Below, in pieces: positions 31,095 to 40,320 of a stretch of 41,682 bases of DNA; within the stretch, counting starts at the first letter, position 1, and each line of letters opens with the position of its first letter. Made by a program: the position numbers and the translations under genes. A model generated the notes under the pieces. It worked only from the letters and a program-made list of their open reading frames with translations, searched no databases and had not been told where the DNA came from. Origin of the DNA: a virus; the IMG/VR virus record IMGVR_UViG_3300045790_000709, positions 1-41,682 of that record. One strand, 5' to 3'.

Positions 31095-31256
31095 TTAAAA
31101 TTTATAACTAATTCCAACAGCTATGAAAAACCCTCCACTAGCTATGGCTAGTGTATTAGGATTTAAATCAAACTGTGGTGCATGTGGATGCCACATCATA
31201 TATGAAGCCCCAGCTGTCATTAAGCTAAGACCTCCAATAATTGTTAATTTCCTCAT
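31095..31256 (-). CDS. 53-aa protein with two membrane segments (holin-like candidate)
   Basis: The gene begins in an ATGA overlap with the stop codon of the ribonucleotide reductase gene, so it is translationally coupled to it. The product has a first hydrophobic segment (LTIIGGLSLMTAGASYMMW, about 4-22), a short His/Pro/Asn-rich hairpin and a second segment (TLAIASGGFFIAVGISY, about 35-51). Two short membrane helices joined by a polar loop is the layout of small class II holins. However, no endolysin is seen beside it and the C-terminal charged tail is minimal, so an unrelated inner-membrane protein is equally possible. The + strand reading frame over the same bases has no conserved features. 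Confidence 0.6.
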   Translation of the reverse strand: MRKLTIIGGLSLMTAGASYMMWHPHAPQFDLNPNTLAIASGGFFIAVGISYKF

Positions 31257-33115
31257 GTTATTTCACAAGCGCCTCCTACGCAAGCAAGTTCACCAGCTAG
31301 ATCTGTTTCATCTTCTGTTTCTATGATTTTAGTAAGATCTACATCTTTAAGATGTAACATCATTGTATCATATTGAACTTTACTTATATCTTCAAAAGGG
31401 GCTTGAGTATATGTACCGCCATCATAAGGCAATACTGATAGACCATTATAATGATCTCTATTTTCCCACATCCATCTTCCGGCTTGATCCCACTCTTCTT
31501 GCTTTAAGCTAACAGTAGCTGAAACATTATGAGTATTAGACCCTTTTCTATGGCCTGGTTTAACCCATTCAATAGCTACTTTCTTTATTCTTTCAAGTAA
31601 ATCAAAAGGTGATTCCATCCTTAATATAGAACCTTCAGGTGCTTTTTGCGGTATACCAATAACAGCAGTATCATGAGGTCTAAAGAATTCATCTTCAACT
31701 AATTCAGGGTGATGTTTAGATAAATGCTTATACATAGATTCATTTTTACCAACTCTAATTCTACGCACATAATAATCATTATGCCACGCATGAATACCAG
31801 ATGAAGTTCCTAGTGCCAGAGATGTTGTCCCAGCAGGCTTCACAGTTGTACATCTAGCTGATTGATTTATACCAATTAGCTTGGCGACTCTTGCGTTTTC
31901 TCGTTTTACTATCTGAGCGCCTTTCGTCATGTCGTAGCCTAGTACGGTGCCAGAACCTATTCCCGTCATAGATATTCCTATCAATGCATCTTTCTCCGTT
32001 GTTTCTTTCCATACATCTCTTAAATAATGAAAGTCAGTATAACCAGCTTGTAGTGTACCTATAAAAGCTGCTTTCTTAACTCTATCATTAAAATCATCTT
32101 GTGATTCTATATCACTAGCATTTACCTCACATAAGTTACAAAACTGAAAAGGTCTTAATGCTATTTCACAACAAGGATTTGTTCCCCAGTCTTTATCGTT
32201 ATTAAGGTATATACCAGGCTCACCTGATCCTGATAGTTCAATACGTTTCCAGAGTTCCATGAAAAAATCTTGTGTGACTTTATGTCTCATAAGAACAGCT
32301 GAGTTATTAGCTCTACCTCTTTGTGGATTTTTCTCCCACCAAGTACCTGACTTACAACTAATCATTTCGTTATCCTCAGCAGAGAACAAGCTAATTAAAG
32401 CAGCTCTACGTATACCACCAGCTAAAACTGAGTCAGCTATATGACAAACTATATCATGAGCTTCAACAGTAGTCAATGGTGTTCCATCTTCTTTACCATC
32501 TAATATACCTTTAATCTTAAGTACACATTCTTTTAATGGCTGAGGACCTGGAGCTTTACCACCTGAAGTAACAAGCTGTGCACCCTTAGGTCTTATATCA
32601 GAAAAATCAAATATAACACTAGAAGATCTTGTGTCACCCATATATGATTTCATAAGAACTTTTATAGCATCACCCCAGCCTTCAATAGAATCACCTATTA
32701 AAAACCTTCTAGTTCTTTTAGCATAAGGTTTATTAACAGGTTGTAGTTGTTTTACGTGATGTTCTTGAACAGAGTATCCAACACCGGTTCCTCCAAGAAG
32801 TAAGAACATAGTTTCGTGGAACGCATCAATGTGATCAATTGGTAAATAAGCACAATTATAGACACGATTAGGGCTAATCTCAATCGGTTTACCTCCGAAT
32901 TGTAGCGAACGCATGCTTGGTAGAATTTTCTTATCATATACTAGGTTATAGGCTTCTTTAATTTGATCCGCTAGTTCGGGATATTTTTTAATATGCATAT
33001 TCATATTACGTGTAACTAGTTCTACCCAAGTTTCTCTACGATTTAATTCAGGAACAAACTTAGCGTATTTCATATAGACGGTTATATCACTTAGTATTTT
33101 GTTGCTTAACTCCAT
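31253..33115 (-). CDS. nrdJ: adenosylcobalamin-dependent ribonucleoside-triphosphate reductase (class II)
   Basis: This 620-residue enzyme makes deoxynucleotides from ribonucleotides for phage DNA synthesis, using a radical generated from coenzyme B12. Key cysteines align with the monomeric Lactobacillus leichmannii enzyme. C88 (VYNCAYLP) and C326 (FCNLCEV) form the redox pair, C315 in NPCCEI is the thiyl site with E317, and C612/C617 in ACVGGAC form the C-terminal shuttle. The 11-residue spacing of C315 and C326 and the 5-residue spacing of the C-terminal pair both match. VKPAGTTSLALGTSSGIHAW is the phosphate-binding loop region. It is shorter than the roughly 740-residue bacterial form. Its start overlaps the upstream gene by 29 bases. 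Dependence on B12 means the host must take up or make cobalamin. Confidence 0.95.
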   Translation of the reverse strand: MELSNKILSDITVYMKYAKFVPELNRRETWVELVTRNMNMHIKKYPELADQIKEAYNLVYDKKILPSMRSLQFGGKPIEISPNRVYNCAYLPIDHIDAFHETMFLLLGGTGVGYSVQEHHVKQLQPVNKPYAKRTRRFLIGDSIEGWGDAIKVLMKSYMGDTRSSSVIFDFSDIRPKGAQLVTSGGKAPGPQPLKECVLKIKGILDGKEDGTPLTTVEAHDIVCHIADSVLAGGIRRAALISLFSAEDNEMISCKSGTWWEKNPQRGRANNSAVLMRHKVTQDFFMELWKRIELSGSGEPGIYLNNDKDWGTNPCCEIALRPFQFCNLCEVNASDIESQDDFNDRVKKAAFIGTLQAGYTDFHYLRDVWKETTEKDALIGISMTGIGSGTVLGYDMTKGAQIVKRENARVAKLIGINQSARCTTVKPAGTTSLALGTSSGIHAWHNDYYVRRIRVGKNESMYKHLSKHHPELVEDEFFRPHDTAVIGIPQKAPEGSILRMESPFDLLERIKKVAIEWVKPGHRKGSNTHNVSATVSLKQEEWDQAGRWMWENRDHYNGLSVLPYDGGTYTQAPFEDISKVQYDTMMLHLKDVDLTKIIETEDETDLAGELACVGGACEIT

Positions 33116-33308: not shown

Positions 33309-33447
33309 ATTCTATTAATTCTTTATATTTTAAATACCCTTTAGATGCTATACTCCAATCAATAAACTTTTGTAATTGTCGTTCTGCATATTTTCTTCTT
33401 GCTATATCTTTTTTTTCCCAAGAATTAGGCTCACGGTTTCTTCGCAT
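33274..33447 (-). CDS. 57-aa basic protein of unknown function
   Basis: This frame encodes a 57-residue, strongly basic and aromatic protein (RRNREPNSWEKKDIARRKY; FIDWSIASKGYLKYKELIEY). It fills the otherwise empty gap between the resolvase-like gene and the next small gene, overlapping them by 46 and 35 bases. The composition looks like a real protein and not like a chance frame in AT-rich DNA, and the packing agrees with the overlapping style of this arm. I do not recognise a family. A nucleic-acid-binding role is only suggested by its charge. Confidence 0.5.
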   Translation of the reverse strand: MRRNREPNSWEKKDIARRKYAERQLQKFIDWSIASKGYLKYKELIEYERKYSARNAE

Positions 33448-33851
33448 TCTTTTTGATTTTGAGGTTTGTATAACGTAACATTCGGTAAGTGTTTATGTAC
33501 ATAAGCTTTAAATAACTTCCAGCGTATGGGAAAAGATTCATTAGCACGTCCTTTACATTCAATAATAAAGCTGTCTCCCACAAAATCTGGAGTATACTTA
33601 ATATTAAGTATTTTCTTATTACCTCGATTACGGTATTCACCTTTGCCATTGCCTTGTCGTTCATAAGATTCTTGTTCAAAGTTAAAAGAAGGGACAAGCT
33701 CGTAAGTTTGTCCCTCGTAATGTGCTATGATCTTAGCTTTCTTTAAAGCTATATACATGTGTTTTTCTAGTCCTGACGCAAATTGTATTCCATCATGCTT
33801 GACCTTTTTAGATCTTACCGGACCTTTCTTTTTGCTATACCGGCGAACCAT
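33402..33851 (-). CDS. T7 endonuclease I-like Holliday junction resolvase
   Basis: This 149-residue nuclease aligns by motif with T7 gp3 endonuclease I. FASGLEKH (E29) matches the T7 FRSGLEDK (E20), KYTPDF (D89) matches TYTPDF (D55), and IIECKG (E98, K100) matches FVETKG (E65, K67). These residues form the PD-(D/E)XK active site. A following R-x-K-rich segment (FPIRWKLFKAYVHK) corresponds to the T7 substrate-binding helix. The T7 enzyme resolves branched DNA and helps to degrade host DNA during infection. The N-terminal basic tail (residues 2-18) could contact DNA. The gene overlaps its upstream neighbour by 17 bases. A generic phage PD-(D/E)XK nuclease is the alternative. Confidence 0.8.
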   Translation of the reverse strand: MVRRYSKKKGPVRSKKVKHDGIQFASGLEKHMYIALKKAKIIAHYEGQTYELVPSFNFEQESYERQGNGKGEYRNRGNKKILNIKYTPDFVGDSFIIECKGRANESFPIRWKLFKAYVHKHLPNVTLYKPQNQKECEETVSLILGKKKI

Positions 33852-34152
33852 AATCTAACTCTTCAGCATGACTAGGATGTGGCGGTCTAAAGCTAGCTTT
33901 GTTAGCTTCAACTATTGTTTCATTAACCAAGTTATCAGTTAACTCTTCACGTGCAGCTTGAATATATAGTATAGCATCCATAAGCTCTTCTTGTATATCA
34001 TTAAGATAACCAGCTAGATCTTTATGTTTACCTCTACGTTCGCTGTCTAATGTTCTGCCATACTTATTAAAGCCAACATCAGATCTTGATACAAACTTAT
34101 CCACAACGTTCTCAACGACTGGATCTCTGAATTCAATAGTCTTACTTTTCAT
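33835..34152 (-). CDS. MazG-like all-alpha protein, second copy
   Basis: This 105-residue helical protein contains KFVSRSDVGFNKYGRTLD followed by DLAGYLNDIQEELMDAILYI. I associate that pattern with small phage proteins of the all-alpha NTP pyrophosphatase group. The EELMDA segment (about 70-75) resembles half of the MazG metal site, but a full EExxE...ExxD set is not clear, so activity is doubtful. The start is the ATG at 34152, overlapping the upstream stop by 11 bases; a longer reading from 34215 would run 74 bases into the previous gene and is unlikely. Its place next to another MazG-like protein and a ThyA-family enzyme suggests a nucleotide-pool role. Confidence 0.6.
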   Translation of the reverse strand: MKSKTIEFRDPVVENVVDKFVSRSDVGFNKYGRTLDSERRGKHKDLAGYLNDIQEELMDAILYIQAAREELTDNLVNETIVEANKASFRPPHPSHAEELDYGSPV

Positions 34153-35005
34153 CTTTAACAAATGTTCCGTTAACCATTTTACCAGTTCTCTTAGAGATAA
34201 CATCGTAAGCTTCATCTATACAATCTTCAATAGTTGTTCCGCCCATATGAGCTAAGTTTGTAAGAACTACAACCATATCACCGATAGCGTCTCTAAATTC
34301 AGGGTTATCATCTTTTAGTATAGCTCTACCTAGTTCGCCAGCTTCTTCCATTAACTTACAGAACTGAGTTTTAGTATCGCCTTTACTATACAAGCCTCTT
34401 GCACCAGCCCAGTCTCTTATTAATTGAAACCTAGCATCTGTATTTAATTTAGCTTTACCATTACTTGGCTTAACTCTATCGGTTAAAGCATCGTGATAAG
34501 CTTGGTAAGCATCGTCACCAAAAGGAAACTCAACTGTTTTAAAATACTTAGCAAAAGACTTATTATATATATAACATCTTTCAGCTGTATACATAGAAGT
34601 AGTTACGTTTTTCATTATCCAAGCTATTGTATCCATGTTAATCTCAAACTTACCGTGAGATGTTAACCATGTCATGCCCATGTTATCCATTAATCTACCT
34701 TTAAGTTTAGATACTGGTACTGGGAATGTGCTTGTCTGCTCTGTTGCGTTTATATGCATTTTGTTTTTGGTTTTTGGTTTATTAATATACAAGTCTTTGT
34801 ATTTTTGTCTGTCAACCCTATAGCCGTGAGACAATTGAAGTTCTAACTCGCGGTCAGATATATAATTTATATCTGTACTTTGCTCTAGAACTTCTACTTC
34901 GTCTAAGTCGTAACCTTGTTGTTCTACGACTCTGCTTATAAGATCACGTGTAACACCTATTTTTTTACCCGGTATATGGTATAAATAATAATTTATTTTA
35001 TCCAT
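34142..35005 (-). CDS. GIY-YIG-like / MazG-like fusion protein
   Basis: This 287-residue protein joins two recognisable ends. Residues 5-65 look like a degenerate GIY-YIG nuclease domain: YLYHIPG, then KIGVTRDLISRV in place of the usual YIGSTKNLKxR, with E53/E55 as possible catalytic acids. Residues 210-287 are MazG-like, with EEAGE (E220, E221, E224), EFRD (E237, D240) and D243 forming the metal-binding set, so nucleotide pyrophosphatase activity is likely. The middle (about 95-180, WLTSHGKFEINMDTIAWIM) is unassigned. It overlaps the ThyA-family gene by 8 bases, so the two are co-expressed. MazG-type enzymes hydrolyse NTPs or dNTPs to monophosphates; T4 dCTPase belongs to the same superfamily. 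Substrate is unknown. Confidence 0.75.
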   Translation of the reverse strand: MDKINYYLYHIPGKKIGVTRDLISRVVEQQGYDLDEVEVLEQSTDINYISDRELELQLSHGYRVDRQKYKDLYINKPKTKNKMHINATEQTSTFPVPVSKLKGRLMDNMGMTWLTSHGKFEINMDTIAWIMKNVTTSMYTAERCYIYNKSFAKYFKTVEFPFGDDAYQAYHDALTDRVKPSNGKAKLNTDARFQLIRDWAGARGLYSKGDTKTQFCKLMEEAGELGRAILKDDNPEFRDAIGDMVVVLTNLAHMGGTTIEDCIDEAYDVISKRTGKMVNGTFVKDEK

Positions 35006-35684
35006 ATTGTTTAGCTCTAGATGTTAGTGTATTTTTTTCTGGTATTTGATCTTCATATAAATGAAGATTATGTGCAAAATGATAATATGTACCCATATCA
35101 TATCCTGTGCGTTTAGAGACCATCTCTTGTAGTTTACTGAATTGATATTGATCATTACAGAAACCAAACCAAAGATCGTTAGAACGCATTGTAACACACA
35201 TATTAAGCTTGTTTTTTAACACTGTAAACTGTACAGCGTAAGTACATGGTGTATCGTGCCTGTATCTTGTTATTTCTTTACCATCGTATATAGATATTGC
35301 AGCTTGCCTAGTTTCAGTATTATCTTTTAACATAGCCACAACTTTATCTAGCTGATAACCTCTTTCCCATTGGTAACCGTAATTAGAATTAACCCTACCA
35401 TTACCATCAGCCATATCTTGCCATATCTTAGGTATCTTACCATATATTTCACCAAGCTTAGCTGTTGATGGATCACCTGATAAATACCATTGCCATTCAG
35501 CTTCAGCGTATTCAATATTGAAGTTTCTAGCTTCATTAGTTATTATGCGATCTAAAGGATTTAGTATAGTAAAGCCTTGATTAAACATAGCTCTAGTATT
35601 ACTAAACCTATGACCTTCGTATGGTATAAGACCATAATAGAAGTCAAAAGCTTCGCTAGCATTTTTAAATTTATTTTCTATCAT
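34998..35684 (-). CDS. ThyA-family pyrimidine methylase/hydroxymethylase (dCMP-type candidate)
   Basis: This 228-residue protein keeps the thymidylate synthase active site: E63 (E58 in E. coli), NYGYQW (about 101-106), catalytic C147 in DTPCTY (C146), R167-S168-x-D170 (R166-S167-x-D169), H208 and Y210 (H207 and Y209). The register is ungapped across this stretch, which places D178 at the position of N177, the residue that selects uracil. Asp at this site is the hallmark of T4 dCMP hydroxymethylase, so dCMP may be the substrate. It is shorter than E. coli ThyA by about 36 residues. It would use methylene-tetrahydrofolate. Thymidylate synthase remains the conservative alternative. Two MazG-like genes follow immediately. 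Confidence 0.85.
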   Translation of the reverse strand: MIENKFKNASEAFDFYYGLIPYEGHRFSNTRAMFNQGFTILNPLDRIITNEARNFNIEYAEAEWQWYLSGDPSTAKLGEIYGKIPKIWQDMADGNGRVNSNYGYQWERGYQLDKVVAMLKDNTETRQAAISIYDGKEITRYRHDTPCTYAVQFTVLKNKLNMCVTMRSNDLWFGFCNDQYQFSKLQEMVSKRTGYDMGTYYHFAHNLHLYEDQIPEKNTLTSRAKQYG

Positions 35685-35963: not shown

Positions 35964-36069
35964 AAGGACAGTGTTTACAACTATTGTTACAGCAGTAACC
36001 TCTTTTTAAATGAAAGCTCTCTGTAAAAACAGTATTACCGTTTTCATCTTTATATGTGTCTATTCCCAT
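35947..36069 (-). CDS. 40-aa Cys-rich protein (DUF5522-like)
   Basis: This 40-residue protein reads as a small metal-binding protein: TVFTESFHLKRGYCCNNSCKHCPYD. The pattern vFTexyHLxRGYCCxxxCxHCPY is one I associate with DUF5522, a short family found mainly in Bacteroidetes cells. Four cysteines (C26, C27, C31, C34) and nearby His residues could hold zinc or an iron-sulfur centre. It overlaps the primase-helicase stop by 10 bases and the next gene by 17. The cellular function of the family is not known to me. Its presence in a phage operon implies capture from, or adaptation to, a Bacteroidetes host. Confidence 0.7.
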   Translation of the reverse strand: MGIDTYKDENGNTVFTESFHLKRGYCCNNSCKHCPYDKDS

Positions 36070-37769
36070 GGCATAGCTTCGTTTAATTCAGGCACATCGT
36101 GAGGTATAAAACAACCTGATCTAGGTTCCCAAGTAAAATGAGCTTCAGCACCATTTTCACCTAAGTTTTGAAACTTACATTTAAGCACCTTAACTTTAGT
36201 CGTCTTATTGTCATAGTCACGATGAACAAGTAGACCATGGTAACTAGCATCGTACCATTCACCACCACCTTTAATGTTGTACATAGTTGGTTCTTCAATT
36301 TTTCCATCTTGTGTCTTATACATTTTAGTTGGATGTGCTACTATAAATACTAATACATCATATTTCTTAGCAAAGGTTTCAATCTTAGTTAAGTATTCCA
36401 TCGTATAACGGTTAACGTCTTCAGTATGTGAGTCAACGTCTCTAACCTTATTATATGGATCAATAACTAAACACTTAATACCTTTACGTTTAACTAGCTC
36501 AGCACCTTTACGTAAAACAGATTCAAGAGTATAACGTTCCATATCAATAAAGAAAAAGTTTTTATTAACATGATCAGCCACTTGATTCCATTTATCTCCG
36601 CCAATATCACCTTTGTTAGGCATATCACCCCATACTTTACGCATAAGCTTGTGTGCATGCAAAAACGTAGGAGCATTTTCAGGAGATGCAAACGCTGTCT
36701 TCCATTCATACTCTTTATTATAACCTACAACCATTTGATCTACAAAGTCTGACTTACCTGAACTAGGTATACCTGTAACAGTTATAAACTGTTTAGTATA
36801 TGTAGAAAAGATATTATCAAAGTTAGGTAAACCAATTTGAAAACCACGTTTAAAACCATTACGAACAAAGTCTGTAACCTCATCTTCAATATCTTTAAAT
36901 GTTGTAACGTTTTCTAAAGGCACAGGTCTTGCATCTAAGACTCTAGACTTTAGTTCTAACGCACTGTATTTCATTAGATATTCATTAGCATCTTTACAGT
37001 CATCAAACGTAGCTAGATAACAAACCTCAGCACCAAGACGTCTTACAAGCTCTGACTGTAAGGCTAAGCCTGGTGGATCATTATCTACTGCAATGATTAT
37101 CTTTTCTTTGTCATCAAAGTAATCAATACAATTATCTAAGTAATCTAAGTTATTGCTATTCAATGTAGCGCCATTTGGAACTGATATAGCGTTTGTCATA
37201 CCCGCTTCATGTAAAGCTAATACATCCATTTCGCCTTCAACTATAATACACATATCGTGTCCTACAGTGTTATCTATATTGTAAAATACTTTTTCAGCTC
37301 CTTTATATAGCTTAAAGTTTTTACGTCCATCTCTATATTTAACATTAGTTAGGTTTCCACCTACATAATAATTAAACTGAATAGTATTCTCAGGCTTGCC
37401 TGTTTGTGGCATAAACTCTTTACCTTCACCTACACCAACCTCATCTAAGGTTTGTTTAGATATACCTCTAGTTTTAAACCAATCAACAACTTTAGATTCA
37501 ACTGGTTTGTGTTTAACTTCAGGTATTACATAGTCACGCTCGGCTTTGCCTTTACGTTTAAATGTATGTAACTGGTAAGATTTATCACAATTATGGCAAG
37601 TACCGATACCACGTTCCCAATCATAAGAAGAACATTTAGCTTTCTTATTCTCAGGTTTCCTATCAATAGAACACAGGGGACAAATCCCCTGCGTTTTACC
37701 TACATCTAAGCCGTGCTGATTAAATGATTCAATTAAGAATCCGTTTATTTCTACTTCTTCAACCTGCAT
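36060..37769 (-). CDS. T7 gp4-like DNA primase-helicase
   Basis: This 569-residue bifunctional replication protein primes the lagging strand and unwinds DNA at the fork. The N-terminus has a zinc site (C30, C33, C58, C61). A TOPRIM fold follows, with VEGEMD (E178) and AVDNDPPG (D229, D231). The C-terminal half is a RecA-like hexameric helicase with Walker A GIPSSGKS (333-340), Walker B CLVIDPYN (D437) and a downstream VFIVAHPTKM segment with the helicase-typical His. The length matches T7 gp4 (566 residues). It overlaps the SSB-like gene by one base (TAATG). No DNA polymerase gene accompanies it in this window. Confidence 0.95.
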   Translation of the reverse strand: MQVEEVEINGFLIESFNQHGLDVGKTQGICPLCSIDRKPENKKAKCSSYDWERGIGTCHNCDKSYQLHTFKRKGKAERDYVIPEVKHKPVESKVVDWFKTRGISKQTLDEVGVGEGKEFMPQTGKPENTIQFNYYVGGNLTNVKYRDGRKNFKLYKGAEKVFYNIDNTVGHDMCIIVEGEMDVLALHEAGMTNAISVPNGATLNSNNLDYLDNCIDYFDDKEKIIIAVDNDPPGLALQSELVRRLGAEVCYLATFDDCKDANEYLMKYSALELKSRVLDARPVPLENVTTFKDIEDEVTDFVRNGFKRGFQIGLPNFDNIFSTYTKQFITVTGIPSSGKSDFVDQMVVGYNKEYEWKTAFASPENAPTFLHAHKLMRKVWGDMPNKGDIGGDKWNQVADHVNKNFFFIDMERYTLESVLRKGAELVKRKGIKCLVIDPYNKVRDVDSHTEDVNRYTMEYLTKIETFAKKYDVLVFIVAHPTKMYKTQDGKIEEPTMYNIKGGGEWYDASYHGLLVHRDYDNKTTKVKVLKCKFQNLGENGAEAHFTWEPRSGCFIPHDVPELNEAMPWE

Positions 37770-39564: not shown

Positions 39565-40320
39565 TTACAGGTAGTCAAGCACTTGCGAGTGATCTACGTT
39601 GTCTATTAGTTTTTGTACAGCTTGCTTTTTAAGCTCTGATACTCTTACATATGCAGATACGCCTTTAAGCTCTAAAGCTGTAGCTATTTCGTTTGCTGAC
39701 CATTTAGGTCCATCTAAACCATAACTCTTGCTTAGAACTAGCATTTCGTTCCATTCAAGATTTTTAGATAATAAACTCATAATGTAAGCATTTAGTAATG
39801 TTTCATTATAAGGGTCAGATCTGTCGGGTATTTGATAAACCATATTGTCATCATTAGGGTTGGCATCGATACTTAAGAATATGCTATTAAAAAACATAGC
39901 AACCATCTTTTTATCTTTACCTCCATCTTTGCGTATTTCATTTAGCTTGTGCTCAGGTATACGCATTGTACCTCTATTTTTATCTATTTCTCTTCGTATT
40001 CCACCTCTTATTCTTTTAGCTAAAAAAGATTTTAAAGTTTGTTCAATGTCTTCAGATTGCATTAATCTTAATCTATCTATTTTATCTACAGCTTTACATA
40101 GTTGAAAACTACCTTCTTGTATTATATCGTTAATAGACATAACACCTGAAGCCTCTTGCGATGTGGCAAACTTTCTGCCTATATTCTCTACTAAAGGTAA
40201 AAATAATACCTTAAGCTCTGCAGGTGTGTAATCAATAAAACTTTTATTAGGTATTGATTTTATTTTTCTTTTTACATCTTCTTTATATCTAATGTAGTTC
40301 TTTATATTATATTTTTTCAT
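39565..40320 (-). CDS. phage sigma-70-family RNA polymerase sigma factor
   Basis: This 251-residue protein is a compact sigma factor that would redirect host RNA polymerase to phage promoters. Region 2 spans about 40-130, with NDIIQEGSFQLCKAVDKID (2.1-2.2, core binding) and FLAKRIRGGIRREIDKNRG...RIPEHKLNEIRK (2.3-2.4, -10 recognition). Region 4 spans about 185-242, with EWNEMLVLSKSYGLDGPKWSANEIATALE and a recognition-like helix (YVRVSELKKQAVQKL). Region 1.1 is missing and region 3 is short. No RNA polymerase gene is visible, so late genes probably depend on host polymerase plus this sigma. Its start overlaps the upstream HTH gene by 14 bases. Confidence 0.85.
   Translation of the reverse strand: MKKYNIKNYIRYKEDVKRKIKSIPNKSFIDYTPAELKVLFLPLVENIGRKFATSQEASGVMSINDIIQEGSFQLCKAVDKIDRLRLMQSEDIEQTLKSFLAKRIRGGIRREIDKNRGTMRIPEHKLNEIRKDGGKDKKMVAMFFNSIFLSIDANPNDDNMVYQIPDRSDPYNETLLNAYIMSLLSKNLEWNEMLVLSKSYGLDGPKWSANEIATALELKGVSAYVRVSELKKQAVQKLIDNVDHSQVLDYL

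Follow-up and report, generated by a model that had tools for sequence, protein, structure and literature searches.

A minus-strand gene at positions 34998-35684 of a viral record (41,682 bases, 32% G+C; "the window" hereafter means this whole stretch) encodes a 228-aa ThyA-superfamily protein that, judged from its sequence, is very probably a dCMP 5-hydroxymethylase that depends on folate and belongs to a divergent lineage. The observations underlying this best explanation are the sequence, its conservation, the signature residues, the fold and the order of the neighbouring genes. The DNA of the phage is thus predicted to be dressed, probably as in T4, with 5-hydroxymethylcytosine. While the enzyme class and the meaning of residue 177 (tied to cytosine-modified phages in MetaGPA 2021) are already known, the lineage, the host group and the compact gene block are new, and the prediction of 5-hydroxymethylcytosine DNA is hereby extended to an uncultured group of marine phages of small size, remote from the T-even phages.

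Identity and conservation of the ThyA-family protein

The reading frame is intact, and the assignment of its product draws on profile, alignments and fold, with C147, D144, T148 and D178 as the marking residues. The protein matches PF00303 (E=1.5e-28, 100 bits against a cut-off of 24.3); with this score above the gathering cut-off, and with matches of its model to TS-fold structures at Z about 20-25, it belongs to the PF00303 superfamily. Its catalytic residues keep exactly the spacing of E. coli ThyA (C147/R167/S168/D170/H208/Y210), as an earlier note on this DNA had stated, and the note's mapping of E. coli N177 to D178 was borne out as well: MAFFT alignment, and HMMER alignment against T4 gp42 and MilA, placed D178, E. 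coli ThyA N177, T4 gp42 D179 and MilA D186 in one column.

To this protein we added 80 IMG/VR relatives, giving a family of 81 sequences that extends down to about 60% identity. D178 shows no variation (81/81), while the neighbouring N177, the alternative candidate for the base-reading position, is Ile in 6/81, and the mapping of D178 is therefore not a product of chance. Also invariant in all 81 are E63, S100, Y102, D144, C147 and T148, whereas the equivalent of E. coli R127, a Gln in the window protein, is Q, H, K or R across the family. Seven pairwise comparisons pointed to purifying selection on the gene (dN 0.06-0.17 vs dS 0.43-0.92). The short length of the protein, taken alone, could suggest a degenerate family member devoid of enzymatic activity; this is extremely improbable given the purifying selection and the retention of the catalytic residues over the whole identity range of the family.

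Closest among PDB sequences were the CMP hydroxymethylase MilA (1e-21) and T4 dCMP hydroxymethylase (5e-18), with the best thymidylate synthase at 1e-14. An AlphaFold model of the protein (pLDDT 85.8) matched AfhB (9iqc, Z 24.6), MilA (Z 24.1) and T4 gp42 (Z 21.8), and identity to any structurally characterised enzyme was below 30% over the fold. In a tree of 25 proteins, the window family and copy b of Bacteroides phage BF486P2 formed one group (support 90/95) lying outside the T4 clade, the dUMP-hydroxymethylase clade and the ThyA/DLP4 clade. By this placement, the family is a lineage of its own among predicted dCMP hydroxymethylases and does not stem from a recent acquisition of a T4 gene.

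Substrate and reaction

Residue comparisons were made against a reference panel of 17 proteins. In this panel, ThyA-type enzymes have N177 and H or V after the catalytic Cys, the SPO1, M6 and Kuttervirus-type dUMP enzymes have N177 followed by N after the Cys, and T4-type enzymes combine D177 with T. When the MetaGPA study (PMC8670742) set TS-family proteins from cytosine-modified contigs against those from unmodified ones, positions 177 and 147 were the two that differed most in conservation; in the window protein they are Asp and Thr, the same as in T4. With Asp at the base-reading position (T4 D179), and with CMP- and dCMP-acting enzymes as the best sequence and fold matches, dCMP specificity, which the earlier note had called probable, is supported.

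Membership in PF00303, and database labels like the "thymidylate synthase" of PHROG 160, would also fit a thymidylate synthase or a dUMP hydroxymethylase acting on dUMP. This is very unlikely, since the dUMP enzymes of the panel (ThyA, SPO1 gp29, M6 and Kuttervirus) all have N177 and H or N after the Cys, the window protein is without the ThyA tail, and none of 34 relatives searched carried a dCMP deaminase. Thymidylate synthase, for which we looked for Asn177, His147 and a C-terminal lid, was rejected as a candidate on finding D178, T148 and no lid. ThyX was likewise absent from the 34 relatives, and 47 relative records carried one PF00303 gene each, with no second ThyA-like gene. Synthesis of dTMP by the phage is therefore unlikely, in agreement with the earlier proposal that the phage may make a 5-modified cytosine and not dTMP.

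The suggestion that Asp in place of Asn is a sign of dCMP use was upheld, and the residue is kept throughout the family, but Asp177 by itself does not fix the reaction, since dCMP methylases, CMP hydroxymethylases and flavin dCMP hydroxylases carry it too. Other residues are more discriminating. Park et al. (PMC6400193) described a hydroxymethylase signature made of Asp at -3 of the catalytic Cys plus Ser-x-Tyr for water, together with the lack of the ThyA tail. The window protein carries D144-T-P-C147 and S100-N-Y102, both invariant in the 81 sequences, and the catalytic Cys and the folate-activating Glu (C147 and E63) are present in every member. Beyond Y210 the chain continues for just 18 residues, compared with 4-23 among the relatives and 55 for ThyA, and the C-terminal lid of ThyA is absent. 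Taken together, D144, S100-x-Y102, T148, E63, W88, Y210 and the missing tail support a predicted reaction narrowed to folate-dependent 5-hydroxymethylation.

Asp177 in an otherwise ThyA-like enzyme would also be expected of an Xp12-type dCMP C5-methyltransferase, in which hydride transfer leads to 5-methyl-dCMP. N177D mutants of ThyA reportedly favour dCMP and yield 5-methyl-dCMP (PMC8670742), and Asp177 is found in the TS of DLP4, which is related at the genus level to Xp12, a phage with 5-methylcytosine, and served as our stand-in for it. In the DLP4 enzyme, however, positions -3 and +1 relative to the Cys are N and P, and the tail is 61 residues long; the enzyme groups with ThyA (96/97) apart from the window protein, and is encoded close to a DHFR gene. 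The window protein shows D and T at these two positions, lacks a tail and falls in a group of its own. We consider a methyltransferase of this type very unlikely; as a candidate defined through DLP4 by a ThyA-like lineage, Asp177 and a long tail, it was rejected.

One of the tied top structural matches raises a further reading that the earlier note had left aside, that of a TS-fold flavin-dependent monooxygenase producing 5-hydroxy-dCMP. AfhB (9iqc) is nearly identical to RB69 ORF048, which is part of the 5-hydroxy-dCMP route of Mosigviruses (PMC13390438), and the flavin pair 9iqc/9iqu (Z 24.6 and 23.9) ties with MilA as the best fold match; the TS fold, Asp177, Thr after the Cys and the absence of a tail are common to RB69 ORF048 and the window protein. 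At the folate site, however, E58, W80, D169 and Y209 are replaced in RB69 ORF048 by F, V, N and F, and this protein also has E at -3 and T at the Ser-x-Tyr position, whereas the window protein retains E63, W88, D170, Y210, D144 and S100. Since all four folate-site residues replaced in RB69 ORF048 are kept, we read the protein as folate-dependent, and the AfhB/RB69-type candidate, which calls for their replacement, was dropped. The much weaker sequence match (5e-7 vs 1e-21 for MilA) and the lack of family-1/2 glycosyltransferases in 34 relatives also argue against a flavin enzyme, which we regard as very improbable.

MilA (PDB 5jnh), the best sequence match and a tied best fold match, shares the Asp at the base-reading position but has a long C-terminal extension. 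The residues that set dCMP against CMP preference were laid out in the MilA work (PMC5175136): MilA has the CMP-type Ala176/Lys133, whereas the window protein has Ser168/Arg126 at these ribose positions, which is the dCMP type. A CMP hydroxymethylase of the MilA/BcmA kind was rejected on this ground.

Such a residue checklist separates four TS-fold cytosine chemistries that all have Asp177. Annotation pipelines often name these enzymes "thymidylate synthase", and database names for such proteins range over thymidylate synthase, dCMP hydroxymethylase and dUMP hydroxymethylase.

Gene block and proposed pathway

The hydroxymethylase gene lies in a block of minus-strand genes whose order is kept in 11 genomes, with small insertions and losses. 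It is preceded by a primase/helicase gene (36060-37769; Pfam, PHROG and gene order) and followed by a MazG-domain gene (34142-35005; Pfam and PHROG) that overlaps its end by 8 bases, a small MazG-like gene (33835-34215), a gene for a RecU/Holliday-junction-resolvase-like (DUF1064) protein (33402-33851; Pfam, PHROG and gene order), and a gene for an adenosylcobalamin-dependent (class II) ribonucleotide reductase (31253-33115; Pfam and PHROG). The C-terminal MazG NTP-pyrophosphohydrolase domain was detected by Pfam in 26/26 cases, and its ExGE...ExxD motif (EExxE/ExxD) is intact in 11/11 genomes. By inspection, the N-terminus of this protein reads like a GIY-YIG segment; the fusion is unusual and is conserved in 11 genomes. 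The small protein gave no Pfam or PDB match, and its MazG-superfamily-like motif (KYG...EELMDAILYI) makes it a possible second nucleotide pyrophosphatase. A PADLOC search of the block gave no match. In addition, the product of window positions 39565-40320 (minus strand) matches a PHROG family of RNA polymerase sigma factors (5.8e-12), and this gene is present in 11/11 genomes compared.

The reductase is closest to the RTPR (triphosphate) type, yet scores below the RTPR family cut-off. If it is of this type, it would yield dCTP directly, and the hydroxymethylase would depend on a dCTPase for its substrate, a role for which the MazG-domain protein is a candidate. Phage Thanatos, whose cytosine is modified, has a dCTP pyrophosphatase alongside its candidate hydroxymethylase (PMC12838424). 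The reductase is 67% identical to that of Microcystis phage Mel-JY01 and about 60% identical to Vibrio and Oceanospirillum phage proteins annotated as "recombinase", which is likely a mis-annotation, with exchange across hosts also likely.

From these data we infer the activity and substrate of the enzyme, the role of MazG, incorporation of the modified base and protection from restriction, according to the following scheme. The class II reductase would make dCTP, from which a MazG-like enzyme encoded in the block would release dCMP. Cys147 of the hydroxymethylase would then attack C6 of dCMP, with N3 of cytosine read and protonated by Asp178, and 5,10-methylene-tetrahydrofolate, activated by Glu63, would pass its one-carbon unit on to C5. 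As the protein lacks a C-terminal tail that would keep solvent out, a water molecule activated by Asp144 would add to the exocyclic methylene, giving 5-hydroxymethyl-dCMP. Kinases would raise this product to hm5dCTP for incorporation; they are probably those of the host, because none was found in the phage (no T4-type dNMP kinase in 26 records).

A search of 34 relatives for family-1 and family-2 glycosyltransferases gave none, so the hydroxymethyl group may be left bare, or be decorated by an unrecognised enzyme. Pfam searches of 9 variable genes of relative G001, and of 9 proteins of relative G006 together with 1 of the window, revealed no decoration enzyme, and several variable proteins of 150-600 aa had no family match. 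Modified DNA of this kind is predicted to resist common restriction enzymes and to be exposed to modification-dependent (Type IV) restriction in Bacteroidota.

Phage group and comparison with known systems

The two ends of the window have no repeat in common, and the record is probably a fragment of a larger phage genome; many relatives carrying the hydroxymethylase gene measure 60-70 kb. Four of them (G001, G006, G009 and G020, 63-68 kb) repeat their start sequence near the end and are therefore apparently complete. The window terminase is closest to that of a spring-water podovirus genome of 60,850 bp (65% identity), followed by Flavobacterium elemo phages and Cellulophaga phages. Matches in bacterial genome bins fell in Flavobacteriaceae, Saprospiraceae and Sphingobacteriaceae, and also in bins named Aliivibrio, Halieaceae and others. 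The host is likely one of the Bacteroidota, this marine phage probably infects flavobacteria, and the lineage as a whole sits in phages of ~60-66 kb whose hosts are probably Bacteroidota. Searches of the window for tRNAs and Rfam families gave no match. The nearest terminase relative, MW202828.1, has ThyX (58985-59587) and no PF00303 gene, so related phages vary between a dTMP-making enzyme and a dCMP enzyme of the window type.

Genes for a ligase, a primase-helicase, Erf and an exonuclease are present in the phage group, and no family A or B DNA polymerase scored above the cut-off; phages of the type of the four complete genomes may use the host replicase. More tentatively, and with the balance somewhat against it, these marine phages of Bacteroidota without a recognised DNA polymerase may share a compact form of cytosine replacement, in which a triphosphate class II reductase, a MazG-like dCTPase and a short hydroxymethylase would combine with host kinases and replicase, and the hydroxymethylcytosine would stay bare or be decorated by an enzyme of unknown family.

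Among known systems, the MetaGPA TS-family proteins share with the window protein Asp177, the changed residue 147, a co-occurring MazG-superfamily pyrophosphohydrolase (PRA-PH) and an associated DNA ligase, but TS domains there co-occur with carbamoyltransferases and with dCMP deaminases, the latter not found in 34 relatives of the window. In Lactobacillus phage ATCCB (L129:2977-4881), whose host is Gram-positive, a gene annotated as beta-glucosyltransferase comes directly after a D177 TS-family gene, which makes an independent pair of the hydroxymethylcytosine type.

The protein WAX06796.1 of Bacteroides phage BF486P2, annotated as deoxycytidylate 5-hydroxymethyltransferase, is 46% identical over its full length, has the signature residues and the GFCNDQ motif, and falls in the group of the window family (90/95), although this phage is of another type and carries, besides a dUTPase gene, an unusual second gene of the PF00303 family. 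The product of that second gene (OP172667.1, L082:17156-17917, near the dUTPase gene) has Asp177 with the folate-activating Glu58 changed to Leu and Trp80 to Tyr, and by analogy with RB69 ORF048 may not be folate-dependent.

T4 gp42 (PDB 1b5e, 6a9a) differs from the window protein in belonging to a separate clade, with about 25-28% identity in structure alignment, in its longer tail (28 residues vs 18) and in R177, which is C in the window protein; in the window relatives, neither a dNMP kinase nor a family-1/2 glycosyltransferase was recognised. The two proteins nevertheless have in common the catalytic Cys, Asp179, the Thr after the Cys, the Asp at -3, Ser-x-Tyr, Glu60, W82 and the lack of a ThyA tail, and their FGF-x-ND stretch aligns residue by residue.
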